From: an uncultured Eisenbergiella sp.
GTDB taxonomy: Bacteria; Bacillota; Clostridia; Lachnospirales; Lachnospiraceae
Direction of reading: 5' to 3'
Length of the DNA: 40,438 nucleotides
Assembly (NCBI GenBank): GCA_947627215.1
Contig: CANQVD010000034.1
Location: forward strand, 1-40,438
Shown here: one piece after another, positions 22,552-31,051 of the stretch
How the letters are laid out: each line of letters begins with the position of its first letter
Numbering within the stretch: position 1 is the stretch's first letter
Notes under the pieces: generated by a model
What the model saw: only the letters and a program-made list of their open reading frames with translations
Told to the model about the DNA's origin: nothing
Database searches by the model: none
Program-made: the position numbers and the translations under genes

Positions 22552-23550
22552 ATGGCAGATTCGATTCAGGTCAGAGACCTGGGGAAAACCTTTTCTTATT
22601 ATGAAAAAGAGGTGGGCATCCGGAGCTCCCTAAAGAATCTGTTCCACCGGGAGAAGCTTCTGAAGACCGCGGTGGACCGGATTTCCTTCGATATCCAGGA
22701 GGGCGGGATCGTGGGTTTTCTGGGACCCAACGGCGCGGGCAAGACGACGACGCTGAAGATGCTGTCCGGGATCCTGGTGCCGACGGAAGGAGCGGCGAAG
22801 GTGCTGGGTTTCACGCCCTGGGAGCGGAAGATCGATTTCAAGCGGCAGATCGCCATCGTGATGGGGCAGAAGAGCCAGCTCTGGTGGGATCTTCCGGCGA
22901 ACGAGACATTTTATTACAATAAATGCATGTATGAGATCGGGGATGCGGAGTACCGGCGGACGCTGGACGAGCTGGTGGAGATGCTGGGCGTACAGGAGGT
23001 GCTGAAGGTGCAGGTGCGCCGTCTTTCGCTGGGGGAGCGGATGAAGATGGAGCTGATCGCATCCCTGCTCCACCACCCCAAAGTGGTGTTTCTGGACGAG
23101 CCCACCATCGGGCTGGATCTGATCTCCCAGCGGAAGATGCGGGAATTCCTGAAGGCTTATCATGAAAAGTACCGCGCCACGGTCATTTTGACCAGTCATT
23201 ACATGCAGGATATCCAGGATCTGTGCAGGCGGGTGATCGTGATCAACCGGGGGACGCTGGTCTATGACGGGGATCTGGCGCAGATCAACCACAGTTTTCA
23301 GAATCGGAAGATCGTGAAGGTCCGGTTCCACAATGATCTGGCGGAGGAGCTGGCACGGCTGGGGCAGGTGCTGGAGGAGAAGGAAGAGGAGATCACGCTG
23401 GAGGCGGAGCGGGAAAATCTTCCGCGGATCACGGAGGAGCTGATGGCGCACGGCGCGGCGGGGGATTTCGTCATCGAGGATATCCCCATCGAGCGGGGCA
23501 TCGAACGGCTGTATGAGAGGAAGGATGGCCGGGAGGATGAGGATGCGTAA
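22552..23550 (+). CDS. ABC-2 exporter ATPase, second set
   Basis: 332 residues, paralogue of the ATPase at 19166. Walker A GPNGAGKTTT near residue 59, Q-loop region VMGQKSQLWWDLP, signature LSLGERMKMEL, Walker B VVFLDEPTIGLD, H-loop ILTSHYMQD and the same C-terminal extension of about 100 residues. The QKSQLWWDLP segment is characteristic of ATPases working with ABC2_membrane_6 permeases. The last codons overlap the start of the next gene. No WYL-type dyad was found directly upstream. Confidence 0.9.
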   Translation: MADSIQVRDLGKTFSYYEKEVGIRSSLKNLFHREKLLKTAVDRISFDIQEGGIVGFLGPNGAGKTTTLKMLSGILVPTEGAAKVLGFTPWERKIDFKRQIAIVMGQKSQLWWDLPANETFYYNKCMYEIGDAEYRRTLDELVEMLGVQEVLKVQVRRLSLGERMKMELIASLLHHPKVVFLDEPTIGLDLISQRKMREFLKAYHEKYRATVILTSHYMQDIQDLCRRVIVINRGTLVYDGDLAQINHSFQNRKIVKVRFHNDLAEELARLGQVLEEKEEEITLEAERENLPRITEELMAHGAAGDFVIEDIPIERGIERLYERKDGREDEDA

Positions 23551-24346
23551 ATACTGGTATGTGTTCAAAATGGCGCTGCAGAGCGCGCTGGAATACCGGG
23601 TGAATTTTTTCCTGAGCCTGATCAGCGACGGATTCCTCGTCATCGTGCAGTGCTGTCTGTGGACGGCGGTGTTCGCCAGCAGCGGACGGGCCGTTATCAA
23701 CGGTTATACCTATCATCAGATGATCCTGTATTCGGTGGCGGCGGGCGTGGTGACGAAGGTGAATTCGGCGGGCGGCTTCCAGAATGAGATTGCGGCGGAC
23801 ATTAAAAACGGGGTGTTCAGCAAGTTCCTGACGCTGCCCACCCGGTATTCGCTGTTCCGCTTTTCCCGGTTTTTCGGGGATAAGGTGATGCAGCTCGTGA
23901 TCGCGGCAGGGATCCTGGCCGTGTTCTTCGGCGTTTACAGGCAGTACGGAACCGTGGAGCTGCCTGTATGGCGGTGCACGGCGTTCCTTTTCGCCTGCCT
24001 GGGGGCCATGGTCATCAATTTCATCCTGTTTTATGCGGTCAGCGCCCTGGCCTTTACCCTGACGGAGGTTTGGGGGATCTTCACCGCAGTCAATCAGGGG
24101 GTGATCCTGCTGGGCGGCGGGATCTTTCCGCTGGATTTTTTCGGGGAAAAGATCGGCGGGGCGTTGCAGCTACTGCCTTTTTCCTATACGCTGTTCTTTC
24201 CGGTGAACATCATCAACGGGCACTTGGGCGCGGCGGAGGCGGCGGAAGGGATCCTGATCCAGCTTTTCTGGATCGGTGTGCTGGCCGCGGCGGCGGGAGC
24301 GGCATGGAAGGGCGGCCTGAAGCGGTATGTGGCTGCAGGAGGATGA
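23543..24346 (+). CDS. ABC-2 family permease, second set, subunit 1
   Basis: 267 residues, about six membrane segments. It opens with RKYWYVFKMALQSALEYRVNF and has GVFSKFLTLPTRYSLFRFSRFFGDK and FPLDFFGEKIGGALQLLPFSY, matching the same family as the first set. ATG at 23543 is preferred because GGGAGG sits six bases upstream; an ATG two codons earlier is also possible. It overlaps the ATPase stop by eight bases. Confidence 0.85.
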   Translation: MRKYWYVFKMALQSALEYRVNFFLSLISDGFLVIVQCCLWTAVFASSGRAVINGYTYHQMILYSVAAGVVTKVNSAGGFQNEIAADIKNGVFSKFLTLPTRYSLFRFSRFFGDKVMQLVIAAGILAVFFGVYRQYGTVELPVWRCTAFLFACLGAMVINFILFYAVSALAFTLTEVWGIFTAVNQGVILLGGGIFPLDFFGEKIGGALQLLPFSYTLFFPVNIINGHLGAAEAAEGILIQLFWIGVLAAAAGAAWKGGLKRYVAAGG

Positions 24347-25164
24347 GCGAGATGGAACGAATGGGGAGAGCGGTTTTGCGGCATATCCGGCTGTACGGGC
24401 TGTTCGTGCGGAACAGCTTTTTAAGCTATGTGGAATATCCGGCGAATTTCTATGCCAGCATGACTATGGAGACGCTGTTTCTGCTGTCCAAGCTGGTCTA
24501 TGTGGTGTTCGTATACGCGGTGGACATCGAGATCAACGGGGTCTCGCCGGATCAGATGCTTTTCTTTACGGGAAGCTATACGATCATGGTGGCCTTTTAT
24601 ACCGGCCTGTTCATGGACAATTTCTTCAACATTTCCGGGTATATCAGCGACGGGACGATGGACATTTACCTGACGAAGCCGGTGTCCGCGCTGATGCTGA
24701 TCTCCCTGCAGCATATCAACTTCGCCTATCCGGTGCCCAATCTGACGGCGGGGATCGTCATGACGGTGATCGGCGCCAGGCGGCTGGACTATACGATCAC
24801 GCTGCGAAACGTACTGGTCTATCTGCTGATCCTGCTGTCCTGCATCGTGGTGATGTACTGCATGTTCCTGATCCCGCAGTTGTTGTCCTTCTGGACGGTG
24901 AAAACGGGGTCGGTGACGCAGATCCTGGACCGAAGCTGGGATCTGAACAACATGCCCATGCACATCTACGGGAAATGGTTCCGGCGGATGGGCACCTATG
25001 TGTTTCCGATCCTGTTCGTGAGCAATGTTCCGGCCATGTACTGGATCGGGCAACTCACCGGCGGGCTGAAGGTCTGGCTCGCGGCCGCGCCCGTGGTATT
25101 TCTGACGCTCCTGAACGTGACCTGGCGGTTCGCCAGCCGGAGGTATGTCAGCGCTGGGAGCTGA
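24343..25164 (+). CDS. ABC-2 family permease, second set, subunit 2
   Basis: 273 residues, about six membrane segments, opening with RHIRLYGLFVRNSFLSYVEYPANF and containing GTMDIYLTKPVSALMLISLQ, parallel to the subunit 2 gene of the first set. AGGAGG lies just upstream; the ATG overlaps the preceding TGA (ATGA). Completes the second exporter. The two sets are the same in gene order, overlaps and family, which indicates an ancient operon duplication that has diverged in sequence. Confidence 0.85.
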   Translation: MSEMERMGRAVLRHIRLYGLFVRNSFLSYVEYPANFYASMTMETLFLLSKLVYVVFVYAVDIEINGVSPDQMLFFTGSYTIMVAFYTGLFMDNFFNISGYISDGTMDIYLTKPVSALMLISLQHINFAYPVPNLTAGIVMTVIGARRLDYTITLRNVLVYLLILLSCIVVMYCMFLIPQLLSFWTVKTGSVTQILDRSWDLNNMPMHIYGKWFRRMGTYVFPILFVSNVPAMYWIGQLTGGLKVWLAAAPVVFLTLLNVTWRFASRRYVSAGS

Positions 25165-25353
25165 GTGGGGCTTTTCGGAGCGGGACAGGTTCTTTGGCAG
25201 TAAAGATCATTACGCATGAAAAGGATATAATTTTGGTATTCTTAACAGCTTGGATGATGACGATTTCCAGTAACCGGTTTTGCAGCCCGGAATGTAAAAA
25301 CAGGTATAATGTCTACAGAAGTCAGAAGAATAAGCCTGACGAGGAGATACAAA

Positions 25354-26819
25354 ATGAAGATTGACAGATGGATAGCGGAAGCGACGGAATGCGATTTTAA
25401 GGTCGCTCTGGAAACGAGAAAACCCAAAAGCTGGCTCAAAAGATCAGCGCCTTTGCCAATGGAAGCGGTGGAACATTGTTCTTCGGCATTGATAATGACA
25501 GAAATATAATCGGCTTGGCTGATGCGCAGATTGATGCCGAGGCAATCAGCCGATTGATAAAAGAACGTATTACGCCTTTCCCAAACTTTATTTTGTCGCC
25601 CGAAAGAGAGCTTGGCAAAGACATTCTGATATTGACCGTATCTGCGGGACGAACCACACCGTATTATTATAAGGCTGACGGCGTGATGGAAGCCTATATC
25701 CGTATTGGGAATGAAAGTGTAATCGCGCCGGATTACGTTCTGAACCAGTTGATTTTGAAAGGAATGCATCGCACTTATGATGCGCTTCCTACCGAGTACA
25801 GTTTCACGGACTATGCCTTTTCCAAGTTGAGGGAGAGATACAAGGTATGGACAGGAAACAGCATGGAGGATAAGCTGTTTGATTCTTTTGAGATTCGGGA
25901 TGAACAAGGAAAGCTGACAAATGCTGGCGCTTTGATTGCGGACGACTCTCCCATACGCCATTCGCGCTTGTTCTGTACTCGATGGAACGGGCTGGATAAG
26001 AGTGGCGGCATGGTCGATGCTCTGGATGGCGCGGAGTATTCCGGCAGTCTAATCATTCTTTTGAACGAGGGCGTCAGCTTTGTGAAGCGGAATATGAAGA
26101 CGCGCTGGAAGAAAGCCGCTGATTCTCGGATCGAGATGCCCGACTACTGTGAGAGAAGTGTTTTTGAGGCCCTCGTAAATGCTCTGATTCATCGTGATTA
26201 CCTGATTTTAGGGAGTGAGGTTCATATTGATATCTACGATGATCGGCTTACGATTCATTCTCCCGGCGGCATGGCGGACGGAACGCGGATACAGGAACGG
26301 GATATAGAAAATGTTTCCTCCACTCGGCGAAATCCCATTCTGGCAGACATTTTCGGGCGGCTGGGATATATGGAGCGGCAGGGCAGCGGCTTTAAGAAAA
26401 TCACTGACGCCTATCATGCCGCCTACAATTTCCGCACGGAGTTGGAGCCGGTTTTCTATTCGGATGTCACTTCGTTTCAGGTCACATTATATAACCTGAA
26501 TTATGAGGCAGAGATAGACGCTGGAAAGGCCACGGCAGAAAATGCTGTGATTGATGCCGACCATGTTGCGATTGAAGTTGCGATTGAAGTTGCGATTGAG
26601 AAACTGACCGCAAGCCCAAACACAATTCGGAAAGCGCAGGCTGTCTTTATGAAAGTGGGAACCGATGGGGTATTTGGTCGTTCTGACATTGCGGCGATTA
26701 CAAACGATTCTGTAACCGCTGCCGGAAATCTGATTACCAAGCTGAAGAAAGCAGATTTGATTGAAGAGGTCAGCGGATACGGCAAGGGAAAATACATTTT
26801 CAAAAAACCGGATCGATAA
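25354..26819 (+). pseudogene. Frameshifted AlbA_2/Schlafen-type ATP-binding transcriptional regulator
   Basis: Two frames together make one protein of about 488 residues. From the ATG at 25354 (GAGGAG upstream) the first 30 residues (ECDFKVALETRKPKSWLK) belong to an AlbA_2 domain. Near 25437-25442, at AAAAG, the reading must step back one base to continue as ISAFANGSGGTLFFGID and onward to 26819. The rest has the C-terminal GHKL-like part (ALVNALIHRDY, SPGGM, ENVSSTRRNPILADIFGRLGYMERQGSGF) and a final winged helix. Without the step the upstream frame stops at 25509. A one-base deletion or sequencing error is most likely. The AAAAG tract is a weak slippery site, and no strong downstream structure was noticed. 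A start inside the second frame (ATG at 25476 region) would lose half the AlbA_2 domain. Confidence 0.75.
26565..26600 (+). repeat. Three 12-bp tandem repeats inside the AlbA_2 gene
   Basis: GTTGCGATTGAA occurs at 26565, 26577 and 26589 (the last ends in G), coding for Val-Ala-Ile-Glu three times in the linker before the C-terminal winged helix. The repeat keeps frame and could vary in number between strains by slippage. Confidence 0.75.
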
Positions 26820-26883: not shown

Positions 26884-27198
26884 TCAAAACGATTTTCTCC
26901 GGCCCTCCCGCATTCTTTCCTCCGGCGGGGATCCCTCCCGATGCCGGTATATGATGTTTCGAACCGTGTTTTCCGCCAGACCGAACCGGGCCGCCAGCTC
27001 CTTTATGGGAACCTTTTGCCGGTGTGCTTCCCGAATAAGCCGGTTTCTCTCCGCGTAATACTGCCGCGTGCCGTTGGCCCCGCCCCATTCCTTCTTTTCC
27101 TCCGCTCTGGGGATATAGAGCAGGCCGCCCTGAAAATAGGCCCGAAGGCCGCTCAGGATTTCTTCCGGAAGGATAACTGCTGCATTCTGATATTTCAT
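26884..27198 (-). CDS. CD3324-family small HTH protein
   Basis: 104 residues. The N-terminal half (KYQNAAVILPEEILSGL, GGLLYIPRAEEKKEWG, GTRQYYAERNRLIREA) matches the CD3324 family of Clostridia. The second half has a helix-turn-helix, IKELAARFGLAENTVRNIIYRH, resembling resolvase or sigma-type DNA-binding helices. AAGGAGG lies six bases upstream of the ATG. Members are widely present near mobile or accessory genes; I know of no demonstrated function. A small inverted repeat AATGAA/TTCATT at about 27207-27223 lies just before the ribosome binding site and could be an operator. Confidence 0.75.
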   Translation of the reverse strand: MKYQNAAVILPEEILSGLRAYFQGGLLYIPRAEEKKEWGGANGTRQYYAERNRLIREAHRQKVPIKELAARFGLAENTVRNIIYRHREGSPPEERMREGRRKSF

Positions 27199-27663
27199 TC
27201 CGTCCTCCTTAATGAATTTTTTTCATTAAGTGCAGAAACAGCAGCGCATATAGAAACATTTCCCCACGCAAAATCCTATATGCCCGCTATTCTGCGTGGT
27301 TCAAACAGACGGCACAGATATTATCCCGACGCATCGTTTCTCCCTTCCTCTCTGTTGAAGAATGACAGACGCTCCGCGGGCAGCCCCGGAAGAGTTCTGC
27401 GTTCTGTTTTCATTATAGACATCCTCGGGCAAAATTTCAAGGACGGAATGTTGTCGTGTTTCCGCAAGAATCGGGGTCGACGGACATCCGTGGCAGCGCA
27501 GCGATTTGAATCTGCCGATCACGTTAAGCTGTTCCTGAATGGTAAAGGCGGCAGGATACCGTCTTTGGTTTAAACCAAACGCTCCCCTTGTACAGCTTTC
27601 GTGCATACTCTATCCTGTTTCTGACAGCATACTGTAGGAAAAGCAGACGGAGGCCAAGAAACG
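27199..27663. other. Intergenic region with a perfect palindrome
   Basis: 465 bases between divergent genes with no convincing gene. TTTGGTTTAAACCAAA at 27564-27579 is a perfect 16-base palindrome, the size and symmetry of a dimeric repressor site, located just upstream of the promoter of the ABC exporter. The open minus-strand stretch at 27301-27606 has no ribosome binding site and no family resemblance. Confidence 0.6.
27588..27616 (+). promoter_or_regulatory. Promoter of the heterodimeric ABC exporter
   Basis: TTGTAC (27588-27593) and TATCCT (27611-27616) with the optimal 17-base spacer, about 48 bases before the GTG start. The palindrome at 27564 ends eight bases upstream of the -35. Confidence 0.5.
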
Positions 27664-29421
27664 GTGAGAACAGGAGACGGAAAATACAGGGATGAAAGAA
27701 ACGGGGACGGAAAAGCCTTTGAATGCGAGCAGCCCCGTCGCAAACGGTTCAGGGACATAACGAATGCGGTAAAAGGGGAGGCGGTCAGGAAGAAAAGGCT
27801 TTTCATCGGAGTGGGGGCCGCGCTGGCCGCGGAAACTGTGACCGCTCTGTGCATGCCGCAGCTTCTGAGCCGGATCCTGGATCAGCTGACGGTGCAGTCG
27901 AACGCATGGCTGTACGGCGCCGCGGCGGCATATTGCGGCGTCGTTCTGCTGAAAGGGGCCGTCAGCGTTTTCAACACATATCTGAGTGAAAAGCTGGGAT
28001 GGGGCCTGTGCGACTGTCTGCGGGCGGATCTGTTCCGGGTGGTCTATGATCTTCGGATGGAGCAGCACAGCAGGATCAGGGCGGGAGAATTCCTGGAGCG
28101 GCTGGAAGGGGATGTCAATATTCTGGCGGGCTTTTTTTCCAGCATGTTCATCGATATCCTGGGAAGCGTCCTGCTGGTGGCGGGGATCCTGTTCGTGTTC
28201 TGGCAGAAGTCCGGCGTGCTGAGCGGGATCTTCACGGTGCTGTCTGCCGGGATCCTGCTGCTCTTTATGACGACGCAGAAGGGGATTGCCCGGTTATGGG
28301 AGGCGGCGCGGGCCGGGGAAACGGAGGTGCTGGGGGAATTCAGCCAGGCGGTGGAAGCGGAAAGGGACATCGCGGGGCTGCAGAAGAGCGCCTATGTGCT
28401 GGACCGTTTTGAACATCGGTACGCCCGTTTCGGGAAACGGCAGGTGCGGGCTTCTTTTCTCGGAAATCTTCCGGCCACGGCGTTTTTCTCCCTGCTGAAC
28501 CTGGGAGAGGGGACGGTGCTGGCCGTCGGCGTGTTCCTGATGGGGCAGGGGCGGATGTCGCTGGGAGAGCTCTATCTGATACTGAGCTATGCCGGGATCC
28601 TGAACTTCCCCTTTTACCGGCTGAAAAACGAGTTCGCGCAGCTCCCGGCGGCGCTGGCGGCGGCGGAACGGATCGGCGGCATATACGGCATGCGGGAGCC
28701 CCCGCGGGAAACGGGAACGGAAAAGGCCCCGGCGGACGGAAGCGTCGTGTTTCAGAACGTTTCCTTCTGCTATGAACCGGAGCAGGAGGTGCTGAAAAAT
28801 GTGAGCTTTTCCGTCCGGTCCGGAGAAAAGGTCCTGATAGAGGGACGGACCGGCGGCGGGAAAAGCACGATCCTTTCGCTCATCGCGGGGCTTTATGCGG
28901 AAACCGCGGGCAGCGTCCTCGTGGGCGGACATGCGGTGAGCGCTTATTCCAGGGAGGCGTATGGCCGCATCGTTTACTGTATTTTTCAGTCCAATCCGAT
29001 CCTGAACGATACGCTGCGCAGTAACCTGACCAGATACGGCGGCGGGTATGACGATGCGGCCATCCTGGAGGCGGTCAGCGCCGTCGGGCTGGAGGACTGG
29101 ATGCGAAAGAGCGGCCGGGGACTGGACAGCGTCATTTCCGGGGAGGACGTGACGCGGGATGAGGCCCAGCGCATCGCCTGGGCGGGCGCATTGCTGGCAA
29201 AGCCCGCGGTCCTGCTGGCGGACGAGTTCGACGCCGTGATCCGGGAGGATACGGTGCGGCTCATCGACGGATTGATCGGCAGCTTTTTCGCGGACACCAC
29301 GGTTCTTTTTGTGAGCCACAGGAAGAGAAGCGCGGTACAGGTACAGAAAAGGATTCTGGTGGAGGAGGGGGAGGTTTTTGCCGTTCCCGTCCGGCAGAAT
29401 GCATCGGAAAGCGGGGAATGA
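27664..29421 (+). CDS. ABC exporter half-transporter, Walker-competent subunit with lost signature
   Basis: 585 residues: membrane domain about 45-335, ATPase domain about 358-575. Walker A is intact (GRTGGGKST, Lys about 400), as are the Q-loop Gln (CIFQSNPIL, about 442), the Walker B with catalytic Glu (AVLLADEFDAV, about D520-E521) and the H-loop His (FVSHRK, about 552). The signature, normally LSGGQ before QRIA, reads VTRDEAQRIAWAGALL, so it is destroyed. The next gene shows the opposite pattern, so the pair would share one working ATP site. The start is GTG with GGAGG ten bases upstream. The substrate is unknown; no peptide precursor or maturation gene was seen beside it. Confidence 0.85.
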   Translation: MRTGDGKYRDERNGDGKAFECEQPRRKRFRDITNAVKGEAVRKKRLFIGVGAALAAETVTALCMPQLLSRILDQLTVQSNAWLYGAAAAYCGVVLLKGAVSVFNTYLSEKLGWGLCDCLRADLFRVVYDLRMEQHSRIRAGEFLERLEGDVNILAGFFSSMFIDILGSVLLVAGILFVFWQKSGVLSGIFTVLSAGILLLFMTTQKGIARLWEAARAGETEVLGEFSQAVEAERDIAGLQKSAYVLDRFEHRYARFGKRQVRASFLGNLPATAFFSLLNLGEGTVLAVGVFLMGQGRMSLGELYLILSYAGILNFPFYRLKNEFAQLPAALAAAERIGGIYGMREPPRETGTEKAPADGSVVFQNVSFCYEPEQEVLKNVSFSVRSGEKVLIEGRTGGGKSTILSLIAGLYAETAGSVLVGGHAVSAYSREAYGRIVYCIFQSNPILNDTLRSNLTRYGGGYDDAAILEAVSAVGLEDWMRKSGRGLDSVISGEDVTRDEAQRIAWAGALLAKPAVLLADEFDAVIREDTVRLIDGLIGSFFADTTVLFVSHRKRSAVQVQKRILVEEGEVFAVPVRQNASESGE

Positions 29422-29425
29422 GGAC

Positions 29426-31051
29426 ATGCGGAAACGGATCGGAAATGAAAAAATTTTTATGCGGGAAGGAAAAACCGGGCCCGGATGCGCACAGCCCGGA
29501 GCGGGAAAAGAGGGAGAAAGCATTTACCGTGCCGCGATACGGGGCGTTCGCTTCTTTGGCCTTTTTATCATTCTGACGGAGACGGCCGCCTATACCTTCA
29601 GTTTTCTGGTCAGCGGACTGATCCGGAAGGATGTCTTCAACCTTCTGGAGGGAAAGCCGGTGTCCCTCGGAATCCTTTCCCTGACGGTCCTGATCCTGCT
29701 GGATATCGCGGTGCCCCTGCTCATCAACGCCGTGAAACAGATCAATGCCGGGCTGGCCGCAAAGCTGAAGGTGCGGATCTCGCGGAACGTGAAGCGCTGG
29801 CTGCTGGAATGCGTGCTCCGCATCCCGCTGGATGAAAGGATGCCGCTGGGAGAGGGAGAGACGATCAGTCTGTTCCGAAATGAGTGTGAGGACGTGAGCG
29901 GATTTTTCATGGAATTCTATTATCAGGTCCCGAAGATCGTCCTGTCCTGCGCGATCCTGATCGTGATGTTCGGCGTCCATCCGCTGTTCGCCGCGGTCAG
30001 CCTGTGCCCCACCGTCCTCATCCTGGCGCTGCTGCGGAGGATGTCCCGGCGCGTCGCGGCCTATCGGGAGTCCGCCCGCAGATCGACTGGCGAGGTCACG
30101 AATTTTCTGAACACCTTTCTGGGGAACATCGCGTTTTTCAAAATGATCGGGGACAGAGAGAGGGTGTACGATGCCTTTCGGAGCAAATGCGGGGAACGGG
30201 CGGGAAACGAGATCCGGGACCGCGTGTTCGACCGGGTGCTGGGTGTTTTTTCGGAGAACGCGTCGGATCTGACGCTGGGCGTCATTCTGCTGATCGCCAT
30301 CCCCTTTTTCGCCGCCGGAAGATTTACCGTGGGGGAATTCGTCATGTTTGAGTATTATTATGCTTTTTTGACCTCTCTGCCGGGGGCTCTGGGGAGTCTG
30401 GTCAGGAAAAGCAGGCAGACGAAGGTTTCCGTAAAGCGGATGGAGGTCATGCGGCACGAAAATGTCCGGCGTGAGAACATTCGGAAGGAGACCGTCCGGT
30501 ATGAAGCCGGAGGACTGTATCTCTCTCTGGAAGTGCGCGGAGAAAGAACAGAGATAGAAGCGCACAGGGGACAGAGCATCCTGTTCGTCAGCGAAAACCG
30601 ACAGACGGGAAGTGAGCTTCTGCGGCGGCTGTTCGTGCGCTGTACGGAAAAAGAGGTCTGCTGTTACGTGCCGGAGGATCCCGTGCTGTTCGACGAATCC
30701 GTCCGGGAGAATATCTGTCTGGACAGCGCTTATGAGGAGGAAAGATTTGCCGGGGTGCTGGAGAAGACGGATCTGTGGGAGGACGTGAGATCCTTCCCGG
30801 ACGGGATACAGAAAAGGGCGGGCAGGAAAGGGATGGCCGTTTCCGGCGGGCAGAGGAAGCGGATCGGCATCGCCAGGGCCCTCTATTCAGGCGCGCAGAT
30901 CCTGTTCCTCGACGGCTTCTCCGATCAGGTGGACCGGGCGACGGAGGAAAAGCTGCTCGCCCGCATTCTGCGGCAGTTTGACGGGATCCTCCTGCTGGCA
31001 TCGGATTCCGCCAGGGCGGCGGAGATGGCGGACCGGGTGGTGAGGCTCTGA
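29426..31051 (+). CDS. ABC exporter half-transporter, degenerate ATPase subunit retaining the signature
   Basis: 541 residues: membrane domain about 35-325 (six segments), ATPase-like domain about 360-541. The Walker A region reads FVSENRQTGSELL and lacks the GK(S/T) loop. The Q-loop Gln is Glu (VPEDPVLF, about 417), the Walker B Glu is Gly (ILFLDGFSDQ, about 497), and the H-loop His is replaced in LLASDSAR. Only the signature is intact: VSGGQRKRIGIARAL (about 472-486). It cannot bind and hydrolyse ATP by itself but can supply the signature to the partner's site. The ATG at 29426 follows AATGAGGAC, five bases after the partner's stop. It ends convergently with the GH39 gene. Confidence 0.85.
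   Translation: MRKRIGNEKIFMREGKTGPGCAQPGAGKEGESIYRAAIRGVRFFGLFIILTETAAYTFSFLVSGLIRKDVFNLLEGKPVSLGILSLTVLILLDIAVPLLINAVKQINAGLAAKLKVRISRNVKRWLLECVLRIPLDERMPLGEGETISLFRNECEDVSGFFMEFYYQVPKIVLSCAILIVMFGVHPLFAAVSLCPTVLILALLRRMSRRVAAYRESARRSTGEVTNFLNTFLGNIAFFKMIGDRERVYDAFRSKCGERAGNEIRDRVFDRVLGVFSENASDLTLGVILLIAIPFFAAGRFTVGEFVMFEYYYAFLTSLPGALGSLVRKSRQTKVSVKRMEVMRHENVRRENIRKETVRYEAGGLYLSLEVRGERTEIEAHRGQSILFVSENRQTGSELLRRLFVRCTEKEVCCYVPEDPVLFDESVRENICLDSAYEEERFAGVLEKTDLWEDVRSFPDGIQKRAGRKGMAVSGGQRKRIGIARALYSGAQILFLDGFSDQVDRATEEKLLARILRQFDGILLLASDSARAAEMADRVVRL

Follow-up and report, generated by a model that had tools for sequence, protein, structure and literature searches.

In ATP-binding cassette (ABC) exporters, Walker A, Walker B, the Q-loop and the H-loop of one nucleotide-binding domain (NBD) form a composite nucleotide site together with the signature of the other, as described in the available parts of a review (PMC7756269). 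TM287/288, TmrAB, MsRv1273c/72c and similar bacterial exporters, compared here by description, are heterodimers of half transporters in which a transmembrane domain (TMD) precedes the NBD, and they combine one consensus site with one degenerate site that binds ATP in at least some states. According to the same excerpts, ATP stays in the degenerate site throughout in the TM287/288 model, and the TM288 D-loop reaches the nucleotide in this site, which the review names NBS1 (PMC7756269); for MsRv1273c/72c, the accessible part of another paper describes ATP clamped in the degenerate site when occluded and, in the ADP-bound state, a site so distorted that it could not bind ATP (PMC12038006). The function of such sites is called unclear in the review excerpts, and ATP bound there is suggested to serve as permanent glue (PMC7756269). 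Here we report P1/P2, two adjacent genes in a 40,438-nucleotide stretch of DNA from an uncultured Eisenbergiella sp. (contig CANQVD010000034.1; hereafter the window), which, judged by their motifs, probably encode an exporter with a single nucleotide site and show the most complete one-sided loss found in this analysis.

P1 and P2 are two open frames on the plus strand, separated by 4 nt. P1 starts with GTG; for P2, ATG at 29426 is a likelier start than TTG at 29378, from which the frame is open too. ABC_membrane and ABC_tran lie above the Pfam cut-off in both proteins, identifying two half transporters with the TMD followed by the NBD, and the ABC_tran match of P2 is limited to profile positions 60-133 of 137. 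Six elements are lost: the signature and the D-loop in P1, and Walker A, the Q-loop Gln, the Walker B Glu and the H-loop His in P2 (Table 1). All six losses map to one composite site and leave the other untouched. The first-pass annotation of this DNA had described a first subunit that keeps Walker A, Q-loop Gln, Walker B Glu and H-loop His and has lost its signature, and a second subunit without these four elements that still keeps SGGQ. Open reading frames (ORFs), coordinates and motifs agree with both descriptions. As also claimed there, the motifs predict a canonical composite site beside one in which nothing remains: one site carries all consensus motifs, the other is altered in the Walker B Glu (P2) and the partner signature (P1), and the P-loop, usually kept in degenerate sites, is absent from P2 by sequence.

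The loss of the P-loop was also apparent from comparison with relatives of the two subunits, which we label F1 and F2. A hidden Markov model built from 14 F2 relatives, with the window left out, matched P2 in two stretches totaling 231 bits and skipped 100 model positions (328-427). These positions extend from the domain linker to past Walker A, and P2 has 56 residues there, 44 fewer. In a MAFFT alignment, about 20 residues are deleted in P2 between the Walker A helix and the Q-loop; placement of the A-loop Tyr is uncertain, and P2 ends just after the H-loop. A regular-expression search of all six frames of 30250-30750 found no P-loop.

The D-loop position of P1 is occupied by Asp in all 14 F1 relatives and in 32/32 exporter ORFs of the same genome, a set drawn from 19 stretches and chosen among 68 matches. 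These 32 ORFs invariably retain the Lys of Walker A, the second Gly of the signature and the D-loop Asp, and seven of them carry a Walker B Asp. In TM287/288, TM288 presumably bears the consensus Walker motifs, which would make it the counterpart of P1. In a second background set of 69 exporter ORFs (loci L054-L083 and L098-L107), which overlaps the relatives and in which many ORFs are truncated at a locus end, 68 keep the Walker A Lys; the sole exception is the P2 of the window, fetched again.

Table 1. Coordinates of P1, P2, their NBD motifs and an upstream palindrome in the window
Feature	Position	Strand	Basis
P1, TMD-NBD half exporter, ATP-binding half-site intact, signature lost	27664..29421	+	ORF, Pfam, alignment
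P1 Walker A GRTGGGKST, intact	28843..28869	+	alignment
P1 Q-loop Gln (IFQS), intact	28987..28989	+	alignment
P1 former signature VTRDEAQ, aligned with LSAGEAQ or similar in relatives	29149..29169	+	alignment
P1 Walker B VLLADE, Glu intact	29209..29226	+	alignment
P1 former D-loop DAVIR, in relatives SSRLD or the like; Asp replaced by Arg	29230..29244	+	alignment
P1 H-loop His (SHR), intact	29317..29319	+	alignment
P2, TMD-NBD half exporter, ATP-binding half-site lost, signature intact	29426..31051	+	ORF, Pfam, alignment
P2 P-loop position SENRQTGS, no Gly pattern, no Lys	30590..30613	+	MAFFT alignment, hidden Markov model
P2 Q-loop Gln to Glu (YVPEDP)	30674..30676	+	alignment
P2 signature VSGGQ, intact	30839..30853	+	alignment
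P2 Walker B LFLDG, catalytic Glu to Gly	30902..30916	+	alignment
P2 D-loop SDQVD, Asp kept	30920..30934	+	alignment
P2 H-loop His to Asp (ASDS)	31004..31006	+	alignment
Perfect 16-bp palindrome TTTGGTTTAAACCAAA, upstream of P1	27564..27579	.	sequence search

A genome contig scan returned a single relative, the sister-species contig L021, from an uncultured Eisenbergiella metagenome-assembled genome; we take it to be the same record as the match in genome G707 (a 10,289-base contig with corresponding coordinates). L021 is 93-97% identical to the window, depending on the alignment, and both genes are open there with every derived motif kept. Between the window and L021, the ratio of nonsynonymous to synonymous substitution rates (dN/dS, Nei-Gojobori) is 0.153 for P1 as a whole (TMD 0.221, NBD 0.079) and 0.134 for P2 (TMD 0.194, NBD 0.050); the comparison genes gave 0.033 and 0.046 (two ABC-2 genes) and 0.073 (the GH39 gene). 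By these values, the degenerate NBD of P2 is the most constrained of the pair's four domains. It differs by three amino-acid changes in 178 codons, and about 4 of 24 differences are nonsynonymous, against 0.75 as the expected proportion (simple binomial on rounded counts, p about 3e-9). Open frames, shared motifs and purifying selection thus indicate that the window pair is no artifact of sequencing and, in this lineage, no pseudogene. Separately, the N-terminus of P1 carries a 25-residue insertion in L021 relative to the window (L021 5002-5200).

The closest relatives of both subunits, besides L021 and a copy in another genus (G364, below), are F1/F2 pairs from Clostridia, cyanobacteria, Deinococcus, Streptomyces and Nonomuraea. 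A class draw of 245 genomes searched with a P1 profile at 1e-60 yielded the window's own genome, G899, G813 and G889. In a tblastn search of plasmids with the G899 F2 protein, 12 of the 25 matches listed, out of 99 records in all, showed 36-45% identity and 13 about 25-28%. Nine of these 12 were used, leaving out three near-duplicates (two S. clavuligerus records and Picosynechococcus 7117). Two weaker genome matches (G730, G1062) were added and L026, which duplicates the L089 record, was removed, for a total of 14 F1 and 15 F2 with a readable NBD. In a further profile search, 165 of 391 genomes passed 1e-60 and six, including the window's own, fell below 1e-100; those passing the first threshold without reaching the second are taken to be other exporters. 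The F1 frame of G889 (L034 5764-7347, minus strand, 528 amino acids) stops after Walker B and before the H-loop, and this copy may be frameshifted.

These relatives are weak at the same composite site, but far more mildly so. Of the 14 F1, 13 have Ala or Ser as the third residue of a signature of the LSAG[EQ] kind, and all 14 keep the Walker B Glu; every F2 keeps the P-loop Lys and SGGQ and has Asp at the Walker B Glu position (15/15 each); the H-loop His is kept in 7/15 F2 and absent in 8/15. F1/F2 are 22-27% identical to P1/P2 and, unlike them, keep the P-loop, the Q-loop Gln, the D-loop and an [LMV]S.G signature, with Asp rather than Gly in the F2 Walker B. A P-loop and an S.G signature in both subunits, the trait shared by F1/F2, is thus missing from P1/P2. 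In a quick maximum-likelihood tree of 63 sequences, P1 joins F1 (98 SH-aLRT) and P2 joins F2 (99 SH-aLRT), the window pair being sister to the remaining F1/F2 and not nested inside; the tree carries no bootstrap, and its stems of about 2.2 changes per column are long branches that call for caution. We therefore file P1/P2 as a divergent sister lineage and not a plain member of F1/F2. Together, motif counts and tree placement indicate that it is the relatives' weak site that is dead in the window.

Both NBDs are readable in 14 loci, and F1 and F2 are next to each other in 12 of these; in L089 and L090 they lie apart within one gene cluster. L025 is the sole F1 with SGG, and its F2 partner keeps the H-loop His, but so do six other F2 with Ala-signature partners, so H-loop loss does not track the partner signature closely. 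Co-variation of the complementary losses across genomes, which the first-pass annotation had proposed as a check, is found as a same-sided, mild asymmetry in the wider family; full loss, however, is confined to one lineage, which leaves no independent replicate.

The reading we favor, at a probability of about 0.68, is that P1 and P2 form an obligately heterodimeric ABC exporter that has just one nucleotide site, its second site being empty. From sequence features, we infer heterodimer formation, export direction, the emptiness of the second site and transport activity alike. As neither homodimer would hold a complete site, a working pump would have to be a heterodimer. P1 would give Walker A, Q-loop, Walker B and H-loop to the single site, and P2 would give the signature and the D-loop; one ATP would close the dimer, and hydrolysis of that ATP would open it. 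The second site, formed by the Walker side of P2 and the signature side of P1, would bind no nucleotide, and the remnant NBD of P2 would act as a scaffold that presents VSGGQ and passes motion through the P2 TMD. Such a pair may have arisen from a heterodimeric exporter in which the same site was already mildly degenerate. A stronger claim, namely that P1/P2 is a natural one-ATP exporter whose second site never holds nucleotide, so that one ATP suffices for NBD closure, hydrolysis and reset and the glue role proposed for ATP in the degenerate sites of asymmetric exporters is dispensable, is in our judgement evenly balanced between right and wrong.

Several observations weigh against the favored reading. 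The pair is rare: it was found in two of 13 genomes of the genus (the window's own and G707), and in a family draw P2 at E 1e-25 matched 2/397 genomes and P1 at 1e-80 likewise 2/397 (own and G364). Just two complete copies are known, both from one genus, and among the sequences gathered no intermediate connects the mildly affected relatives with full loss. Pdr5, with comparable motif loss, still holds ATP in its deviant site according to the available part of its description (PMC8421411). Moreover, a stop codon closes the frame of P2 in G364, 118 bases short of the end of the contig, and this copy looks, from its sequence, broken or misassembled. Additional draws, which overlap with those above and with one another, returned one of six genomes in the genus of G364 (G364 itself), 1/344 in the order (own) and, with the P1 profile at 1e-60, 1/185 among relatives of G364 (again G364 itself). 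In plasmid and phage records, P2 matches were distant, at no more than 36% and mostly 20-30% identity; viral contigs gave no P1 match, and the P2-family profile found five distant exporter loci there.

The G364 copy, from another genus of the same family, lies near a contig end. Its P1 is in two frames, shares 55-56% identity with the P1 of the window, reads VTQDEEQ at the signature and has His at the D-loop Asp position, so that the P1 losses are common to two genera. Between the window and G364, the derived signature is no more conserved than the rest of the NBD (11/15 versus 118/210 conserved, P about 0.13). Its P2 resembles residues 47-224 of the window P2 (about 178 residues, 61% identity), and tblastx gave no further P2 similarity past residue ~224, 118-125 bases from the contig end. 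A search of the G364 assembly for the P2 NBD did not find it, the best matches being general ABC proteins (E 9e-10, 30% identity). The NBD losses of P2 are observed only in the window and L021. Two transposase ORFs lie near the G364 copy (L020 2704-4000): one of the IS66 family, above the cut-off and upstream of the copy, and one with a weak DDE match below the cut-off.

Among the alternatives, a Pdr5-like arrangement, in which the second site no longer hydrolyses but keeps one ATP as glue through non-canonical residues, is unlikely, though it has the nearest known case on its side. In Pdr5, one site is altered in all motifs (Walker A Lys to Cys, Walker B Glu to Asn, H-loop His to Tyr and signature LNVEQ, as given in the review excerpts; PMC7756269), and the D-loop is the sole conserved region of this NBS1, which nevertheless binds ATP in cryo-electron microscopy, as stated in the accessible text (PMC8421411); permanent ATP glue in degenerate sites is likewise what the review suggests (PMC7756269). 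Pdr5 resembles P1/P2 in having one site with changes in Walker A, Walker B and the H-loop as well as in the partner signature. It differs in being a single eukaryotic polypeptide with the NBD before the TMD, in its kept D-loop and in the ATP of its deviant site. A single Walker A change is named for it in these excerpts, whereas P2 has neither the Gly pattern nor the Lys, the surrounding stretch falls 44 residues short of the family model (56 versus 100), and P1 has lost its D-loop Asp as well. The PDR family is, moreover, described in the available parts of the review as full-length NBD-TMD-NBD-TMD polypeptides not found in bacteria (PMC7756269); P1/P2 are two TMD-NBD half transporters in a bacterial genome. 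ABCG5/G8 also combines a signature change with a Walker A change, but the latter is just Lys to Arg in the same excerpts (PMC7756269). The asymmetric exporters listed for comparison by the first-pass annotation lacked Pdr5, a close precedent by the review excerpts (PMC7756269), and its interpretation is supported by the motifs. Among open-licence PMC papers, as far as their accessible text goes, we recognized no bacterial exporter without Walker A in one half, and one may still exist in print.

Slightly less probable again is a decaying, non-functional pair whose losses reflect pseudogenization. Rare and patchy occurrence, the long stem branches (about 2.2 changes per column) and the state of the G364 copy, with P1 in two frames, an early stop in P2 and a transposase ORF upstream, would fit decay. 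However, the frames are open in two species, all four domains are under purifying selection, and the losses are confined to one site where random decay should strike the other as well; the defects of G364 may be assembly faults or decay of that lineage alone. Intact motifs, frameshifts or stops in relatives, named beforehand as signs of sequencing error or pseudogenization, are thus absent from the window and L021 and present, as a split P1 and an early stop in P2, in G364. For the window lineage, pseudogenization was set aside on the basis of the open frames in L021 and dN/dS. That P1 and P2 are not mutual partners, each pairing with another half exporter, or P2 being a regulatory subunit, is improbable: the genome is indeed rich in other half exporters, with 32 exporter ORFs examined, but the two genes are adjacent with complementary losses, F1 and F2 adjoin each other in most loci, and P1 falls with F1 and P2 with F2. 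Least probable by far is that the motif losses are artifacts of sequencing or assembly. The window does come from a draft assembly of 108 contigs, but the separately assembled L021 has the same motifs and the P1 losses recur in G364; the L021 motifs and the six-frame search of 30250-30750 all but rule out an error or a hidden P-loop.

The near neighbors of P1/P2 in the window are an ABC-2 system (22552-25164), an AlbA_2 gene and a gene for a helix-turn-helix (HTH) protein, plus a GH39 glycosidase gene on the opposite strand. The AlbA_2/Schlafen gene with HATPase_c_4 (25476-26819) is mostly absent from the sister contig, and in its region a blastn match jumps from window position 25207 to 26330 at adjacent L021 positions. 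The small HTH protein upstream of P1/P2 (26884-27198, minus strand) shows eight nonsynonymous and two synonymous differences from L021, which are small numbers. The candidate palindromic operator proposed in front of the genes is real as a palindrome and is the sole perfect 16-bp palindrome in the window; an operator role is unsupported, since one arm base is changed in L021.

No obvious substrate gene had been seen initially, and this holds: among the small ORFs overlapping 27190-27680, none was convincing by eye as a RiPP (ribosomally synthesized and post-translationally modified peptide) precursor or other substrate gene, ORF 27304-27606 (minus strand) has no Pfam match at 0.001, and the near neighbors are those named above. 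At L031 and L032, F1/F2 pairs sit next to nonribosomal peptide synthetase (NRPS) genes, whereas in Gloeothece, Synechococcus NIES-970 and Picosynechococcus 7002 their neighbors are siderophore receptors or binding proteins. In the part of the relatives checked, NRPS or siderophore-uptake genes lie beside F1/F2 at L031, L032, L084, L089 and L090, which suggests that the family exports natural products or siderophores. A putative esterase adjoins the pair in L034, and the annotation of the Deinococcus loci holds no NRPS or siderophore genes. This neighborhood, frequent in F1/F2, is not found at the window, and no NRPS Condensation domain was detected in the window genome (G000), G707 or G364. 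By analogy with the relatives' neighborhoods, a small natural product or peptide would be a weak guess for the P1/P2 substrate.

At one site, P1/P2 has been stripped of P-loop, partner signature and D-loop Asp, and yet the genes remain under purifying selection. The pair amounts to a natural experiment on the ATP-glue idea and could show whether ATP in the second pocket is required by pumps of this kind. Together with the mild degeneracy of the F1/F2 relatives, the full loss in P1/P2 suggests an order, read from present-day states and not from ancestral-state inference, in which the signature and the Walker B Glu would be lost first, the H-loop variably, and the P-loop, Q-loop and D-loop last.

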